A stretch of DNA of 20,413 nt from an uncultured Campylobacter sp. (lineage in GTDB: Bacteria > Campylobacterota > Campylobacteria > Campylobacterales > Campylobacteraceae): assembly GCA_937896205.1 (NCBI GenBank), contig CALBNA010000232.1:1-20413 (forward strand), written 5' to 3'. The notes under the pieces were generated by a model. That model did no database searches, was not told the origin of the DNA, and was given only the letters and a program-made list of their open reading frames with translations. The position numbers and the translations under genes were made by a program. This document shows positions 9,317 through 17,388 of this stretch, piece after piece. The number at the start of each line of letters is the position of its first letter. The stretch's first letter is position 1.

Positions 9317-9757
9317 ATGAGGCTTTGGACGATAAGTTTTAAATATCTCGATGCAAAGGGGTTAGTCGCGCTGTGGCGCGAGGCTCTACTGGCTAAAAAC
9401 GTGCTGGCAGGGCTAACTAAAGGCTACAAAAATCACCCGCAGCTTGACCGCTTTTACGCGCATGAAAACGCGCAGGCGGCGATAAATGCGTATCTAGCGG
9501 AGGTTTATGCGCAGGCCTGCGCTCGCGGATATAAATTTGACGCGGCAAAAGTGGGCGAATTTGACGAGCGAAATTTAGCCAAAATAGCCGTCACTCGCGG
9601 ACAGATAGAGTATGAATTCGCCTTTTTGCAAGAGAAGCTAAAATCGCGCGACGTCAAGGCTTATGAGCGAAATTTAAGCGAAAAAAATATAGAAATCGCA
9701 AGCATTTTTAAAGAGGTCGAAGGCGAAATCGAGCCGTGGGAGAAGGTGAAAATTTAG
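9317..9757 (+). CDS. Pyrimidine dimer DNA glycosylase (endonuclease V type)
   Basis: A 146-residue protein of the Pyr_excise family (PF03013 type, related to T4 endonuclease V). It would cut the glycosidic bond of cyclobutane pyrimidine dimers and nick the abasic site. The recognisable pattern is MRLWTISFKYLDAKGLVALW at the N-terminus, REALLAKNVL with a conserved Glu at residue 22 (the likely catalytic position), GYKNHPQLDRF and a C-terminal EIEPWE. Family length is similar. AAAGGC precedes the ATG. No separate promoter is obvious in the 116-bp gap after uvrA, so partial co-transcription past the intergenic hairpin is possible. The functional assignment is from family resemblance. Confidence 0.82.
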   Translation: MRLWTISFKYLDAKGLVALWREALLAKNVLAGLTKGYKNHPQLDRFYAHENAQAAINAYLAEVYAQACARGYKFDAAKVGEFDERNLAKIAVTRGQIEYEFAFLQEKLKSRDVKAYERNLSEKNIEIASIFKEVEGEIEPWEKVKI

Positions 9758-10196: not shown

Positions 10197-11825
10197 TTAC
10201 TCCGCCTTCATATGCTCGGCGGCAGGCACTTTTGGTAGTCCCGGCATCAGCATAGTTGATCCGCTGACCGCCACGATAAAGCCCGCTCCACCGCGGATCT
10301 CAAGCGCGCTAACCTCGAAGCTAAAGCCCTTCGGTCGTCCTAGCAGCTTAGCGTCCGAGCTAAAGCTATACTGCGTTTTTGCGACGCAAACTGGAAAGGC
10401 GTCAAAGCCTAGGCGCGAAATCTCGGCTAGATCAGCCTGCGCGCGCGGGCTAAAGACGACGTCTTTGGCGCCGTAAATTTTAGTCGCGATCTTTTCGATC
10501 TTGGTTTTGACGGGGTCGTTCGCATCGTAGGTGAAGTTTATCTCGCGAGCTGGTTTTCCGCAGATTTGCGCGACTTTTTTAGCCAGATCCTCTGTGCCCA
10601 CGCTTCCTTTTAAAAAGCCCTCGCACACGCTAAACTCAGCCCCCGACTCCTCGCAAAGAGCGCGCACGTGAGCGATCTCCTCGTCCGTATCGGTTGCGAA
10701 TTTATTTAGCGCGACGATGACGTTTTGGTTGAAATTTTTTAGATTTTCTATGTGGGCTTTTAGGTTTTCGCCGCCTAGTTTTAGCGCGTCCAAATTTGGC
10801 TGGGAGATGCCGTCTTTATCGCATCCGCCGTTATATTTTAGCGAGCGGATAGTGCTTACTAGCACGACGCACTTTGGCGCGAGTCCTGCGGTGCGACACT
10901 TGATATCGAGGAACTTTTGCGCTCCTAGCTCGGCGCCAAACCCCGCCTCGGTCACGACGTAGCCCGCTAAATTTAGCGCCGTTTTAGTTGCGATGACGCT
11001 GTTGCAGCCGTGCGCGATGTTTGCAAACGGTCCGCCGTGGATGAGCACGGGCGTGCCCTCTAGAGTTTGCACGAGGTTTGGTTTTATCGCCTCTTTTAGC
11101 AGGACGCAGACGGCGTCGGCGCAGTTTAGGGATTTTGCGCGCACGAGGCCGCCGTCTTTATCGTAGGCGACGACGATGTTTTCTACGCGCTCTTTTAGAT
11201 TTTTTAGGTCGGTTGCGAGGCATAGGATCGCCATTATTTCGCTAGCGGCGGTGATGACAAATCCATCTTTTCGCGTAAATTTATTGCTCTTTTCAAGGCC
11301 GATTTCGATCTCTCTTAGCGAGCGGTCGTTCATATCCATGCAGCGTTTGAAAACGACGCGCGCAGGGTCGATATTTAGGGCGTTGCCGTGGTGGATGTGG
11401 TTATCTAGCATCGCTGCTATGAGGTTGTTTGCCGAGGTAATAGCGTGAAAGTCGCCGTTAAAGTGCAGGTTGATATCCTCGCTAGGCGTCACTTGCGAGT
11501 ATCCGCCGCCCGTCGCTCCGCCTTTTATACCAAAAACAGGCCCAAGGCTTGGTTCTCTAAGCGCGGCGCATACGCGTTTGCCGATACGCGCTAAGCCGTC
11601 AGATAACCCCACGGTCACGGTCGTTTTGCCCTCGCCGTAGGGCGTCGGGTTGGTCGCGGTAACTAGGATGAGGTTTGCGCCAGGCGCGCTACCTAGTCGG
11701 GGCTCGATCTTGGCTTTCAGCTTACCGAAGGTGTCTAGCGCCTCCTCGCCTAGCCCCAGTTTTGCGCCGATTTTTACGATATTTTGCGGCTTTGCGCTCG
11801 CTTCTATTTCTCTGTCGCTTAGCAT
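10197..11825 (-). CDS. fhs: Formate-tetrahydrofolate ligase
   Basis: ATP-dependent cytosolic enzyme that joins formate to tetrahydrofolate, giving 10-formyl-tetrahydrofolate for purine and formyl-methionine synthesis. The 542 residues are slightly below the usual 550-560. The nucleotide loop TPYGEGKTT lies at 61-69, and other family segments are visible: GIKGGATGGGYSQV, NLHFNGDFHAIT, LDNHIHHG, TPVLIHGGPFANIAHGCNS and the C-terminal MLMPGLPK. AAGGAAAG precedes the ATG at 11825. A TAAAAT box about 40 nt upstream may be its promoter. It appears to be a single-gene unit with its own terminator. Confidence 0.95.
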   Translation of the reverse strand: MLSDREIEASAKPQNIVKIGAKLGLGEEALDTFGKLKAKIEPRLGSAPGANLILVTATNPTPYGEGKTTVTVGLSDGLARIGKRVCAALREPSLGPVFGIKGGATGGGYSQVTPSEDINLHFNGDFHAITSANNLIAAMLDNHIHHGNALNIDPARVVFKRCMDMNDRSLREIEIGLEKSNKFTRKDGFVITAASEIMAILCLATDLKNLKERVENIVVAYDKDGGLVRAKSLNCADAVCVLLKEAIKPNLVQTLEGTPVLIHGGPFANIAHGCNSVIATKTALNLAGYVVTEAGFGAELGAQKFLDIKCRTAGLAPKCVVLVSTIRSLKYNGGCDKDGISQPNLDALKLGGENLKAHIENLKNFNQNVIVALNKFATDTDEEIAHVRALCEESGAEFSVCEGFLKGSVGTEDLAKKVAQICGKPAREINFTYDANDPVKTKIEKIATKIYGAKDVVFSPRAQADLAEISRLGFDAFPVCVAKTQYSFSSDAKLLGRPKGFSFEVSALEIRGGAGFIVAVSGSTMLMPGLPKVPAAEHMKAE

Positions 11826-13249: not shown

Positions 13250-13639
13250 ATGAATTTTTATTTTTTTGATGCGAAAGACTTGAGGCGCGTCGGTAGGTTT
13301 CTGGCTATTTTTATATCGTTTGCTATAGGTATTGGAGTCAGTGTCTTGTGCGTTCATTTTTTAAAAGACGATAGCTACTCTTTGCTATTTATAGTTGTTA
13401 TCCCTTTGGTATATTTAGGGCTTAAATTTTATTCAAAATGCCCAAACTGCAAAAAGAGTTTTTGTACTAGAAAAATAGGCCAAGAGACGTTGCGTGAGGA
13501 GCTGGCGAAAGGAACTAAAAAGGTGGATAATAGAACAGTAAGCACAACGTTTAGGATAAAAGATATAGAAATTTATACTAAATGCGATAAGTGCGGTTTT
13601 GAAAATTTTTATACGGTAACCAAAAAAACAGAGGTGTAA
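13250..13639 (+). CDS. Membrane zinc-ribbon protein, unknown
   Basis: A 129-residue protein of no recognised family. Two hydrophobic segments (about residues 17-37 and 45-59) are followed by a soluble tail with two cysteine pairs, CPNC (64-67) and CDKC (112-115), spaced as in a zinc ribbon. Between them is a charged stretch with KKVDNRTVSTTFRIKDI. The tail is probably cytoplasmic. The gene is more AT-rich than most of the window; one sampled 60-base line holds 17 G+C. Expression is probably under a G9-containing promoter. The downstream gene starts 50 bp later behind a weak hairpin, so both may share transcription. Confidence 0.7.
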   Translation: MNFYFFDAKDLRRVGRFLAIFISFAIGIGVSVLCVHFLKDDSYSLLFIVVIPLVYLGLKFYSKCPNCKKSFCTRKIGQETLREELAKGTKKVDNRTVSTTFRIKDIEIYTKCDKCGFENFYTVTKKTEV

Positions 13640-13671
13640 TTTTTAAGGATTTTAAACGTCTTAAAAATTTT
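13640..13671 (+). terminator. Weak hairpin between the zinc-ribbon gene and the next gene
   Basis: TTTTTAAG (13640-13647) pairs with CTTAAAAA (13660-13667), followed by TTTT. The stem is AT-rich, so partial read-through into the next gene is likely. Confidence 0.4.
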
Positions 13672-13689
13672 AATCAATAGGAGTAGAAA

Positions 13690-14412
13690 ATGGTAAATGA
13701 AAATTTCAAAAAATGGGCTTTGGGTTTTAGCGGTTGCGACGGTGGAGACATCGGTAGCGCGCAAAGCCCGAGCGTTTGGCTATGTGGACTTGAGTGGGGC
13801 GGCGGGTTTAAGCCTGAAGAGCTGGCTGATGAGTTTAAGAATGACGTTAGCGAGCCGTCCGTAGGATACGAGAGTCATGAGCGAAATTTGGCCTATCAAT
13901 ACAATATCAAAGCCATAAAGTTACTTTGCGCGCTTAACGGAGCGAGCGATCATATCAAATTTAACGAAACCGTAAAGCCGTTTACGCAAGGCGCAAAGGG
14001 ATATTTTAAGCTAAATTTATATCCGCTTGCGTTTAAAAATACTAGTCATAGTCTTTGGAGCGAAGGTTTTGCCGAGGCGACAGGTCTGAAAAATAAGGGC
14101 GAATATATACGCTGGATAGAGCAAAATCGCTTCCCTAAACTTAGGGCATGGGCAAAAGAGCGTAAACCGCGCCTAATAATCTGCGTGGGAATAAGCTATA
14201 AGAACGAATTTATCGCGGCATTTGGCGGCGAGGGCGTGCAGGTGAAGGAAGCGGTCGCAGGCGGTAAGAAATTTTATTATTTTAAAAACAAGGCTGGCAC
14301 AATCGTGGCGATAACGTATTTCTTGGGCAATCCACACGGTTTAAATTCTGACGCGGCGATAAAAGCTACTGGAGAGAAAATAGCTCAAATTTTAGCTCAA
14401 AACGGCAAATAA
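13690..14412 (+). CDS. Uncharacterised protein, possible uracil-DNA-glycosylase fold
   Basis: A 240-residue soluble protein that I cannot name with certainty. Four segments fall in the order seen in the uracil-DNA glycosylase superfamily: SVWLCGLEWGGG (28-39) in the position of the catalytic GxxPG-type loop, LNLYPLAF (108-115), RLIICVGISY (161-170) as a core beta strand, and NPHGLNS (214-220) in the position of the minor-groove HPS-type loop. The first loop carries Glu35 but lacks the usual proline. Similarity to the fold is inference from motif order only. The ATG is set by AGGAG eight bases upstream. It converges on the three-gene operon that follows. Confidence 0.6.
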   Translation: MVNENFKKWALGFSGCDGGDIGSAQSPSVWLCGLEWGGGFKPEELADEFKNDVSEPSVGYESHERNLAYQYNIKAIKLLCALNGASDHIKFNETVKPFTQGAKGYFKLNLYPLAFKNTSHSLWSEGFAEATGLKNKGEYIRWIEQNRFPKLRAWAKERKPRLIICVGISYKNEFIAAFGGEGVQVKEAVAGGKKFYYFKNKAGTIVAITYFLGNPHGLNSDAAIKATGEKIAQILAQNGK

Positions 14413-14462: not shown

Positions 14463-14506
14463 AAAAAAACGGCGAGTGTGATTTGAGCGTACTTCACGCA
14501 CTCGCC
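14463..14506 (-). terminator. Rho-independent terminator of the three-gene operon
   Basis: On the minus strand GGCGAGTG pairs with CACTCGCC (outer 8 bp, with an extra TGA/TCA pairing past a 2-nt bulge), followed by a G and seven T. It lies 15 nt past the stop of the repeat-protein gene and is the clearest intrinsic terminator in this half of the window. Confidence 0.82.
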
Positions 14507-14520
14507 AAATTTGCCTCACG

Positions 14521-14856
14521 CTACCACAGTTTTAGGCAGACTTGCCCTATTATGACAGCGATGGGAGCTCCGTTTATGTCGTAGGTGTTGCTCGAGTTTG
14601 AACCAAAATCGGGCTTGACGACATTGCCTTGTATCACCCAAGTGTTGCTTGAGTTTGCGCCGTATTTGGGCTTTATTTTTTTGCCGTCAAACTCAAATGT
14701 GTTAGAGGAGTTGGCTCCGGTTTTGGGCTTTAGCACGCCGCCGTCAAATTCAAACGTATTGTGCGTGGTTGCGCCGTATTTGGGCTTTAGCTCGTTGCCC
14801 TCATATACCCAAGTGCCGTTGCCCGCAGACCTTCCGTCCCAGTTGATTTTCGGCAT
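14521..14856 (-). CDS. Small protein of five 19-residue repeats
   Basis: A 111-residue protein made almost entirely of tandem repeats at residues 14-32, 33-51, 52-70, 71-89 and 90-108. The consensus is NTxxxxGxxxKPxxGxNSS, degenerate in the first and last copy. The regular aromatic, Gly and Pro positions suggest a small beta-repeat structure. There is no signal peptide and no membrane segment apart from a mildly hydrophobic C-terminal end (PIAVIIGQVCLKLW). A strong AGGAGG ribosome site precedes the ATG, so high translation is plausible. It is the last gene of the operon with the DnaJ-finger protein 29 bp upstream. Function is unknown. Confidence 0.75.
   Translation of the reverse strand: MPKINWDGRSAGNGTWVYEGNELKPKYGATTHNTFEFDGGVLKPKTGANSSNTFEFDGKKIKPKYGANSSNTWVIQGNVVKPDFGSNSSNTYDINGAPIAVIIGQVCLKLW
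14533..14817 (-). repeat. Five tandem 57-bp coding repeats
   Basis: The repeats correspond to residues 14-108 of the small repeat protein. The period is 57 bp. The central copies are the most alike, the outer ones diverged, which suggests an old or selected array rather than a recent expansion. Confidence 0.7.
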
Positions 14857-14885
14857 TTCGTCCTCCTAAAATAAGTTATAATCAA

Positions 14886-16802
14886 TCACTTTGCGCGGCT
14901 TGTTTCTTTTGCTTTTATCGCTTCGTAAATTTCATCCGCGCTCGTTAAATTTGCGTCCAAAAACTCCTGCGCCTTTTTGAGAGTGCGCGCCCCCATGATG
15001 CCGTCGGCCTTGACGCCGATAGTCTTTTGCACGTATAAAATTTTCTCTTTTTGCGTGATCTGCGGCGCGGTTTTGGCCTCGGCGGTCGAGTTTGCTTCTC
15101 GCGCCGTCTCGTTTGAGCCGTCAAATTTAGCCGTCATCTCGCGAAATTTGGCCTCCAGGCTGCGCGATGCCTCAAACCGCTCGTCAAGCTGCATAAGAGT
15201 CGGCGCGTAACCAAAACTTGATATCGCGCCGTAGATCGCGCCGACTGCTCCAAAGCCCGCTAAAATTTTAAAAAACAGAGCAAAAGCCTCTTTGTTTCGC
15301 ATGCTTTGGCGGTACTCTTTAGGCACGGCACTACGGCGAAACAGAGTAACCAGCGCGCTAAGAGGCGCCAAGACGCACCAAGCAGCGCCCGCGCAAACTG
15401 CCAAAAATATAAGCGTATAAATAGGCGCCATGATGTAGCGCTCGGCTAAATTTTCGCCCAAAAATCCCGCCGTAAAAACTAGCGCAATCAGCCAAAACAC
15501 CGAGCCCAGCCCGAACCAAACCGCAGGAGAATATACGGGAGAGATTTTATCCAGGCATTTTTTCATCGTTTCGCCTAGCTTGCTCGCCGCGCCCCTTGAG
15601 ACATAGCCGTCGCAGGCCTCTATCACGGCGTTTGCGGCCTCGGTTTGCGCGCCGCCTGTTTTAGCGATACGCTTTAGCGCGGAGTCAAGAGCTGGCTGCG
15701 AGCAGTAGCGCGTAAAAAATTTAAACGCCTCGCGCCTAGTTATCTTGCCGTCGGCGTCAATCTTTTCTAGCATAGATATCTCGTCTGCGAAAAGATCGTC
15801 GAAAAACGGCGGCCTGATAAATGCGTAGGGCGGGTTGCTAAAGCCCACCGCCTCGTACTCCTTGCCTAGCAGGATAAAATTTAGCCGCGTTATTGCGCTA
15901 GAGCCCACGTAAGAAAACAGATGCGAGCTCTCGTCTCCGCTCTCTTCGTCTTGATGAAACGGTATCGTTTGCGAGAGAAATTTGCAGGTGCGAGCGCATA
16001 AAAAGTCTAAAAGCTCGTCGGCGTAGGCGCGCGATTTTATGCGTAAATTTACGCTCGGTTTTGCGCAGGCGCCGATGTTTGCTACCGTGGTAAAGTATCC
16101 GTGTCCGCTACACTGGGCGCACTGCACGTAGCCTGATCCCCCGCATCCGCCGCACCTAACCGTGCCAGATCCCGAGCAGCCGTAGCAGGTATTTGAGCCG
16201 CTGCCTCCGCATGATGAACAGCTCTCGTAGCGATACGTCACGTAGGTGCTACCGTCTGAGTTATACTGGGTGTGAGGGCGATTTACGCCGCCACTGCCGC
16301 CGCACATGGAGCAGCTTTGTCGTCCGCGTCCGCCGCAGCTGGAGCAGGTTTTTTTGCCTCGTCCGCCGCACTCGCCGCATCTCGTCTGCCCGTCGCCGCC
16401 GCAGTTGCCGCAGCGCTCGCTCATGCTAAAGGGCTTAAAATCGTAATACCTAACCGTGCCGCCTGATTTTGCGACGGCCTCTTTTGCGTCTTGGCGTAGC
16501 TCGGTGAGTAAAATCTCGCGCAAATCGGCGCTATCTCTAGCCTGCAGCAAGCACTCTCTGGCGTGATTTTCGTAGCCGCGCACGTCGCCTCCGAAGTGTA
16601 TCTGTTCTTTTGCGCCGCCTGCGATCTTGCTCTCCTCGCGCTTGCCGTAAAACTCCCACGTCACGCTAGCCGTGGCTTCAAAATCAAAAATTTCGTGCGA
16701 AATTTCTACCAAATCCTCAGGCTTAGCTTGGTTGCCGTTTATTAGATTGCGCAGCCCTTTTAAAAACGGCTCGTGCAAATTTAGCTCGTCAAATTCGCTC
16801 AT
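14886..16802 (-). CDS. Membrane protein with eight DnaJ-type zinc motifs
   Basis: A 638-residue protein with an unusual architecture. Residues 1-130 form a soluble N-terminal part. Residues 131-235 hold eight CxxCxGxG motifs starting at 131, 142, 153, 164, 195, 206, 217 and 228, twice the four found in DnaJ. A J-domain is absent: no HPD motif is seen. Residues 339-365 (MLEKIDADGKITRREAF) resemble a TerB/DjlA-like or degenerate EF-hand helix pair. Three membrane segments lie near 427-448, 457-483 and 507-530. After a linker, residues 587-615 (VQKTIGVKADGIMGARTLKKAQ) match a peptidoglycan-binding_1-type unit. An AGGAT site precedes the start, 16 bp after the YcxB-like gene. Function unknown. 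Confidence 0.8.
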   Translation of the reverse strand: MSEFDELNLHEPFLKGLRNLINGNQAKPEDLVEISHEIFDFEATASVTWEFYGKREESKIAGGAKEQIHFGGDVRGYENHARECLLQARDSADLREILLTELRQDAKEAVAKSGGTVRYYDFKPFSMSERCGNCGGDGQTRCGECGGRGKKTCSSCGGRGRQSCSMCGGSGGVNRPHTQYNSDGSTYVTYRYESCSSCGGSGSNTCYGCSGSGTVRCGGCGGSGYVQCAQCSGHGYFTTVANIGACAKPSVNLRIKSRAYADELLDFLCARTCKFLSQTIPFHQDEESGDESSHLFSYVGSSAITRLNFILLGKEYEAVGFSNPPYAFIRPPFFDDLFADEISMLEKIDADGKITRREAFKFFTRYCSQPALDSALKRIAKTGGAQTEAANAVIEACDGYVSRGAASKLGETMKKCLDKISPVYSPAVWFGLGSVFWLIALVFTAGFLGENLAERYIMAPIYTLIFLAVCAGAAWCVLAPLSALVTLFRRSAVPKEYRQSMRNKEAFALFFKILAGFGAVGAIYGAISSFGYAPTLMQLDERFEASRSLEAKFREMTAKFDGSNETAREANSTAEAKTAPQITQKEKILYVQKTIGVKADGIMGARTLKKAQEFLDANLTSADEIYEAIKAKETSRAK

Positions 16803-16818
16803 TTTAAATCCTAAATTT

Positions 16819-17388
16819 TTACTTGTCTATTCCCGCGCGCTTTTTTATCTCGCTTAAAAACTCCGCTCCGCCGTCGCCAAAAGCCTCGCGCGGCACGGCG
16901 TAAAACATGGAGTTTGCGATGATAACGACGACGAAACTACCGACATAGCGGGCGTCGCTGATGACGTTATAAAAATATCTGCCCTCGCCGAATTTGCTTT
17001 TTTGCACGAAAAACCCATCCTCTAAGATCACACTTTTTGGTCCGAATTCGCCGTAGTTTGCTTTATTTATCAGCGCGCGAGTAAGCAGCCAAGGCCGCAG
17101 CCCAGTAGCGTAAAGTAGAGTAAAAAACGCGGCCATCCACGATAGGTAGGCTAGATTTTCCACGCCGCTAAAACCGTAATCCCTAAGCAAGTCGCTAAGC
17201 TCCCTGAAGTAAAATTTGACGCACAAAAGCGTGATAAAAAACATGCCAAGAGCCGACGCCGTAAAGTCGCATATACGTATGTTTCGCATAAATTTATCGC
17301 CCTTATAGACTATCTTGCCCACCTCACGCGTCATGGCTTTATACTCGGCGCTAGGCTTTATCTCAAATTCGGCTTTTAAATTTGACAT
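16819..17388 (-). CDS. YcxB-like membrane protein
   Basis: A 189-residue inner-membrane protein. A soluble N-terminus precedes two hydrophobic segments (about residues 42-62 and 80-97). The C-terminal part follows the YcxB-like pattern: a strand-rich stretch with ILEDGFFVQKSKFGEGRYFY, then SFVVVIIANSMFYAVPREAF, where the aromatic-x-x-PxxAF turn is the family hallmark. YcxB-like proteins have no settled function. It is the first gene of the operon, with AAAGGAAG before the ATG and a GATAAT box about 27 nt upstream. The family call is moderate. Confidence 0.65.
   Translation of the reverse strand: MSNLKAEFEIKPSAEYKAMTREVGKIVYKGDKFMRNIRICDFTASALGMFFITLLCVKFYFRELSDLLRDYGFSGVENLAYLSWMAAFFTLLYATGLRPWLLTRALINKANYGEFGPKSVILEDGFFVQKSKFGEGRYFYNVISDARYVGSFVVVIIANSMFYAVPREAFGDGGAEFLSEIKKRAGIDK

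Follow-up and report, generated by a model that had tools for sequence, protein, structure and literature searches.

Three genes lie side by side on the minus strand of a Campylobacter showae-like stretch of DNA, 20,413 nucleotides long, which we call the window. They encode a YcxB protein (gene 1), a membrane protein with a ladder of zinc-binding motifs (gene 2) and a small protein built of 19-residue repeats (gene 3). Judged by their sequence, the trio is a real single unit, limited to one Campylobacter group among the genomes we searched. The unit is a local grouping of three otherwise independent families, limited to C. showae-like bacteria, and finding the genes together here is no evidence that the system is widespread. 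Two unannotated proteins gain a likely structural identity from the analysis. As for what the operon does, our tentative choice is that it supports a wall-tethered, chaperone-like platform, a function inferred from the predicted parts.

A three-gene unit of C. showae-like bacteria

The source of the unit is an oral Campylobacter, its middle protein being 94% identical to the C. showae CC57C copy. The proteins have 189, 638 and 111 residues, and the gaps between their genes are 16 and 29 bp (Table 1). Plausible ribosome sites (AAAGGAAG, AGGATT and AGGAGG) lie upstream of the three starts. Directly past the last gene, on the strand of gene 3, comes a hairpin, GGCGAGTG...CACTCGCC, followed by GTTTTTTT. 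A sequence-only reading of this stretch had described the same three frames, gaps, AGGAGG site and terminator-like hairpin, and the open reading frames and sequence bear it out. It had also called the terminator strong; the hairpin and its T run exist, but the hairpin folds only moderately better than shuffled sequences (z -1.71, with 12 of 200 shuffles equally good). A consensus terminator scan, which allows loops of 3-8, missed it on account of its loop length. Among six loci compared, the hairpin is present in the window, L038 and L039 and absent from L001, L040 and L041. Tandem Repeats Finder (TRF) reported two arrays, a 57-bp one inside the repeat gene and a 33-bp one within the cysteine region of the zinc gene; across the window, Rfam gave nothing at gathering score and a tRNA scan gave no tRNA.

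Table 1. Features of the three-gene unit, in window positions
Feature	Position	Strand	Basis
Gene 1, YcxB-family protein, 189 aa, C-terminal YcxB domain	16819..17388	-	PF14317, hydrophobicity, dN/dS
Gene 2, membrane protein of 638 aa: alpha/beta head into which the zinc ladder is inserted, helical domain, three membrane helices, tail	14886..16802	-	
Zinc ladder of gene 2, residues about 131-242	16077..16412	-	4+4 CxxC, 11-residue pitch
Three predicted membrane helices of gene 2, about residues 430-448, 461-479, 506-524	15231..15515	-	hydrophobicity, model helices
C-terminal peptidoglycan-binding-like tail of gene 2, about residues 581-638	14886..15062	-	PG_binding_3/PG_binding_1 matches
Gene 3, beta-flower-like repeat protein of 111 aa with four full 19-residue units	14521..14856	-	
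Intrinsic terminator-like hairpin and T run after gene 3	14463..14506	-	folding and sequence

All three genes look real, with purifying selection in each. Pairwise dN/dS against the window is 0.011-0.090 for the repeat protein (four genomes), 0.102-0.137 for the zinc protein and 0.137-0.295 for YcxB (five genomes each), constraint being strongest on the repeat protein. The G001 repeat gene was left out of this comparison because that copy has an internal stop. The C. showae CC57C repeat gene (L001, 4660-4923) is interrupted by an internal stop, so the product of gene 3 may be dispensable.

Among 150 Campylobacteraceae genomes (the family of G001), the repeat protein occurs in seven, the zinc protein in eight and YcxB in 14. 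At least one of the families is present in 18 of the 150 and all three in five: G001, G112, G120, G124 and G144. In these five the genes are adjacent and in conserved order while the flanking neighbours change, with gaps of 8 to 20 bp between YcxB and zinc genes and 29 to 92 bp between zinc and repeat genes. Elsewhere the zinc gene stands with neither partner alongside: in the stretches examined from G002, G011, G057, Neisseria elongata and a Neisseria MAG, and in four Pasteurellaceae-family genomes with an open zinc gene (the gene is fragmented in L005 and L006). In G057 relatives of two window genes (10197-11825 and 9317-9757) flank the zinc gene, which lies at 648,768; a Sel1-repeat gene is beside it, and YcxB is at 412,855. 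The repeat protein was not found in 11 zinc-gene genomes outside the trio group (A5 profile, a search holding no positive control), and YcxB turned up in two of 13 genomes searched, one of them a weak match and on a different contig. In G097 and G108 the repeat gene stands without either partner. Nine of the 150 Campylobacteraceae genomes carry a distant YcxB gene; in five of the six whose regions were examined the gene is downstream of a gene of 280 to 300 aa, G057 being the exception, and this upstream gene is DUF3737 in the single copy tested.

Wider searches added little. The A3 profile found the repeat family in six of 298 genomes from the phylum of G001, all six already found by other searches, and the A5 profile found it in none of 398 from the phylum of G003, again with no positive control within the search. 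The window repeat protein as query matched one of six genomes, G001 being the positive. Viral contigs yielded one locus and plasmids one record for the repeat protein; the zinc protein was found in neither collection. Weak matches in the zinc-protein genome searches, with frames of about 375-390 residues, are probably DnaJ itself. The alignments behind these profiles hold 10 of 269 relatives for A1 (120 listed), 14 of 24 for A3, seven of 24 for A5, and six of 53 plus four locus copies for A7.

The three families thus mostly live apart. Outside the trio group they largely do not co-occur, and five of the 18 member-bearing genomes hold all three. The single unit proposed from sequence stands where gene order is conserved, in 5 of 150 Campylobacteraceae genomes, but not outside that group, where the families are largely separate; a reading of the three as one system is therefore limited to the C. 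showae-like group.

Beyond the unit, at 13250-14412, are two frames of 129 aa (two CxxC pairs) and 240 aa (no Pfam match). L038, L039 and L041 have both, whereas in L001 and L040 neither lies between the unit and the PfpI gene; this stretch is a variable junction adjoining the repeat gene. PADLOC gives a weak match of the 129-aa protein to a 4TM effector (E 0.0075). In G120 (L038, 609-1487) an AbiTii-family gene (PF18864) lies between uvrA-like and 146-aa genes, a place where the window has none.

Zinc ladder, wall-type tail and YcxB protein

The ladder of gene 2 consists of eight CxxC motifs, four in each of two arms, set at an 11-residue pitch with a 31-residue step between the arms. Zinc-protein copies in Neisseria and Pasteurellaceae have 3+3 motifs against the window's 4+4, and the arms are equal (4+4 or 3+3) in 17 of the 18 zinc proteins counted. 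The module had been named an octa-zinc motif; two arms of four CxxC would imply about four zinc sites, not eight. Structure comparison matched the ladder model to the fold of the DnaJ and BSD2 zinc domains; Foldseek against the PDB gave no match at E 0.001. The DnaJ zinc profile PF00684 is matched by nine of the 11 members of A1 (best 3.2e-6) and BSD2 (PF25436) by three. The window protein's PF00684 score is under the Pfam cut-off, and one relative, P0074, has PF00684 in the database's own annotation. Against sequences of solved structures, the zinc profile matched a DnaJ zinc domain best (E 7e-4) and then protein A chains. A J-domain was found neither in the window zinc protein (Pfam, E 1) nor among the 25 Pfam families listed for the 11 A1 members.

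The second membrane helix of gene 2 is followed by a positively charged loop, which by the positive-inside rule would place head and loop inside and the tail outside. On the window tail, PG_binding_3 scores 13.3 bits against a cut-off of 24.6 (E 0.099). Among the 11 A1 members the best values are 2e-4 for PG_binding_3 and 1.7e-3 for PG_binding_1, and at E 0.5 these families match five and four members, respectively. The peptidoglycan-binding-like tail reported earlier is thus under the Pfam cut-off in the window protein. Such a tail is present on 16 of the 18 zinc proteins whose ends were examined. Two Pasteurellaceae-family copies, L086 and L087, end before it, so wall contact would not be essential to the zinc-protein family. 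We rejected an EF-hand reading of the DADGKI stretch, which is not conserved among relatives. A small membrane protein of G057 (L023, 1495-1989) shares the peptidoglycan-type tail of the zinc protein. Two 870-aa zinc proteins of C. gracilis type (P0025 and P0096) end in nearly the same tail as the 647-aa P0010, which suggests tail exchange between subfamilies.

Gene 1 is above the PF14317 cut-off (24.9 against 23.3 bits), as is one distant Campylobacter relative; the G057 copy is not. One clear hydrophobic stretch, at about residues 37-60, and a weaker one near 80-98, under the threshold used, suggest that the product is probably an inner-membrane protein. The YcxB proteins of G112 and G124 diverge from the window copy mainly across the hydrophobic part, the first 105 residues, and its surroundings. 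The YcxB profile matched no solved-structure sequence up to E 1.

A repeat protein with a variable number of units

The repeat protein is probably a new, divergent beta-flower-like family whose models point to a flower-shaped ring. Its 19-residue unit contains a KPK-x-G-A-x-S-S-N-T half. The best model has tandem beta-hairpins, four of them predicted (pLDDT 88.7, pTM 0.83), and its best VIA structural match is the Tubby-like barrel 1ZXU, spanning residues 1-103. The beta-flower fold comprises PF21784-PF21786, in clan CL0395 with the Tubby C-terminal domain, and both model and match agree with the passages that describe it (Durairaj et al. 2023, PMC10584680). A Salinibacter relative, P0198, matches PF21786, Pfam's model of a six-fold beta-flower, at E 1.6e-4 and 22 bits (cut-off 34) over profile positions 5-124 of 125. 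The window protein itself has no Pfam beta-flower match, PF21786 matches one of 15 A3 members (E 0.12), and a profile comparison of the repeat family with two PF21784 sequences gave no match. Searched against sequences of solved structures, the repeat profile returned two matches (E 0.69 and 0.85). For comparison, PF21784 occurs in three of 150 genomes from the phylum of G003; PF21786 matched nothing in 150 genomes from the phylum of G001 nor in 14 controls, and is uninformative there. The hairpin-tip motif [DNEQ]XXG fits three of five window units (EFDG, EFDG and DING) and not VYEG or VIQG. For a few relatives the LCI fold and DUF2527 outscored the beta-flower models (P0128 reached 22.6 against an LCI cut-off of 20.3, via a 14-residue match), and we set them aside because their best stretches cover 10-14 residues inside one repeat. 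Signal-peptide-like starts, judged by eye, are found in P0128, P0132, P0143 and P0198.

A linear or open scaffold, not a ring, would sit well with several of our results. Two of the five models scored under 60, Foldseek found no match for the repeat model at E 0.001 in the PDB or among viral models, and the alleles have anywhere from 2 to 4 units. We nonetheless consider a scaffold unlikely, given the scores of the best model, the reach of the 1ZXU match, the P0198 match along nearly the whole of PF21786 and a C-terminal hydrophobic segment that fits a central helix.

Alleles with the window's two ends have four, three or two units, in exact 19-residue steps: 111 aa in the window, 92 aa in P0122 and P0123, and 73 aa in P0127 and P0130 (in P0127 the unit-spacing pattern that we used overlooks one unit). 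One source names P0123 as Campylobacter showae. The repeat genes of G097 and G108 lie between the same neighbours and encode 109 and 90 residues, respectively, again one 19-residue step apart. All five trio genomes, on the other hand, share the length of 111 residues, with a stop in one of them. Metagenome alleles may be repeats collapsed in assembly, which weakens the count of short alleles. It is conceivable, though we would not call it probable, that whole-unit recombination at one locus alters the symmetry number of the ring, and that the zinc ladder is likewise modular, growing by one motif in both arms together. Modular protein growth has two clear examples here, the ladder going from 3+3 to 4+4 and a beta-flower-like protein changing unit by unit in close relatives. 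The natural 2-, 3- and 4-unit alleles would be a ready series for how a closed beta-ring changes its fold number. In the literature searched, including the portions of PMC10584680, PMC7618865 and PMC7618909 that were available, we met no report of a beta-flower changing its unit number at one locus.

The same kind of 19-residue unit appears in a Salinibacter plasmid protein and on a viral contig. The former, on Salinibacter ruber plasmid pSR60 (L067, 1477-1938), is an exported-looking protein beside an ion channel gene. Ion channels lie near the repeat gene both there and in G097; different channel models beside Ion_trans are involved, and we take this as coincidence.

Possible functions and known relatives

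Gene 2 is predicted to sit in the inner membrane: a cytosolic head, built on a DnaJ/BSD2-like zinc ladder with about four zinc ions, would lead into three membrane helices and a periplasmic tail of peptidoglycan-binding type. The zinc domains of DnaJ and BSD2 bind polypeptide clients, and the ladder may likewise hold clients at the membrane, making the protein a wall-tethered, chaperone-like platform. Gene 3, predicted to form a small beta-flower-like ring of hairpins in the cytosol, with a hydrophobic helix at the C-terminus, and gene 1, a predicted inner-membrane YcxB protein, would be its local partners in envelope assembly or stress. A function shared by the trio is plausible. The envelope link already suggested from the sequence draws support from sequence features and from gene order in 5 of the 150 genomes. 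Physical partnership is conjectural, since the families are usually found separately, and elsewhere the zinc protein persists without the other two. Chance neighbourhood may explain the same facts: three unrelated genes could have shared one transcription unit since the C. showae-group ancestor, kept by descent while doing separate jobs. The full set is missing in 13 of the 18 member-bearing genomes, all three genes have different neighbours elsewhere, and G057 keeps its zinc and YcxB genes apart. Against mere descent, order and short gaps persist in five genomes despite flanking genes that come and go. Weighing against the platform are the lack of a J-domain, the PF00684 and tail scores under cut-off in the window protein, the tailless L086 and L087 copies, the empty Foldseek search with the zinc model and the interrupted repeat gene of CC57C. 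We favour the platform, if cautiously, and rank chance neighbourhood just after it.

A contact or defence system had also been proposed, and finds no direct support: no PADLOC model matched the three window proteins at E 0.1, and PHROGs gave just weak families of unknown function. The form of this idea that we weighed, and consider improbable, has the beta-flower-like protein as partner of nuclease-like proteins in a defence or conflict module. The next gene after the repeat gene in G097 and G108 encodes a 197- or 161-aa protein with an E-x-K-like stretch. On viral contig L066 the repeat gene immediately precedes a DUF6946 gene (2.6e-77), an integrase-like gene (by eye) adjoins, and a passage by that family's authors assigns DUF6946 to a nuclease clan (PMC10584680). 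But the window unit has no nuclease, Pfam found nothing in the 197-aa protein, PADLOC likewise matched none of four proteins scanned from L066 and L042 (repeat proteins and neighbours), and phage records gave none for the L066 repeat protein, the 197-aa protein or the DUF6946 protein. At the end of the L066 contig (4330-6045) three genes stand in a row, encoding a 204-aa protein that matches no Pfam family, the repeat protein and the DUF6946 protein.

Each part of the unit has a known relative. With DnaJ (PF00684) and BSD2 (PF25436), gene 2 has in common CxxCxGxG motifs in two arms and the fold. The DnaJ zinc domain has 2+2 motifs, whereas gene 2 and its relatives have 3+3 or 4+4, no J-domain, a membrane anchor and, in most, a wall-type tail. 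That tail resembles the peptidoglycan-binding domains PF01471 and PF09374 in being helical with a DG-x-x-G motif, and differs in its weak scores, under cut-off in the window. Gene 1 is like other YcxB proteins (PF14317), a family for which we know of no function, in passing the curated cut-off, and unlike them in its operon context. The repeat protein shares with beta-flowers, as parts of PMC10584680 describe them, tandem beta-hairpins, a hydrophobic C-terminal helix and 1ZXU as closest solved structure; it differs in falling under the Pfam cut-offs, in its very regular 19-residue unit and in a unit number that varies at one locus.
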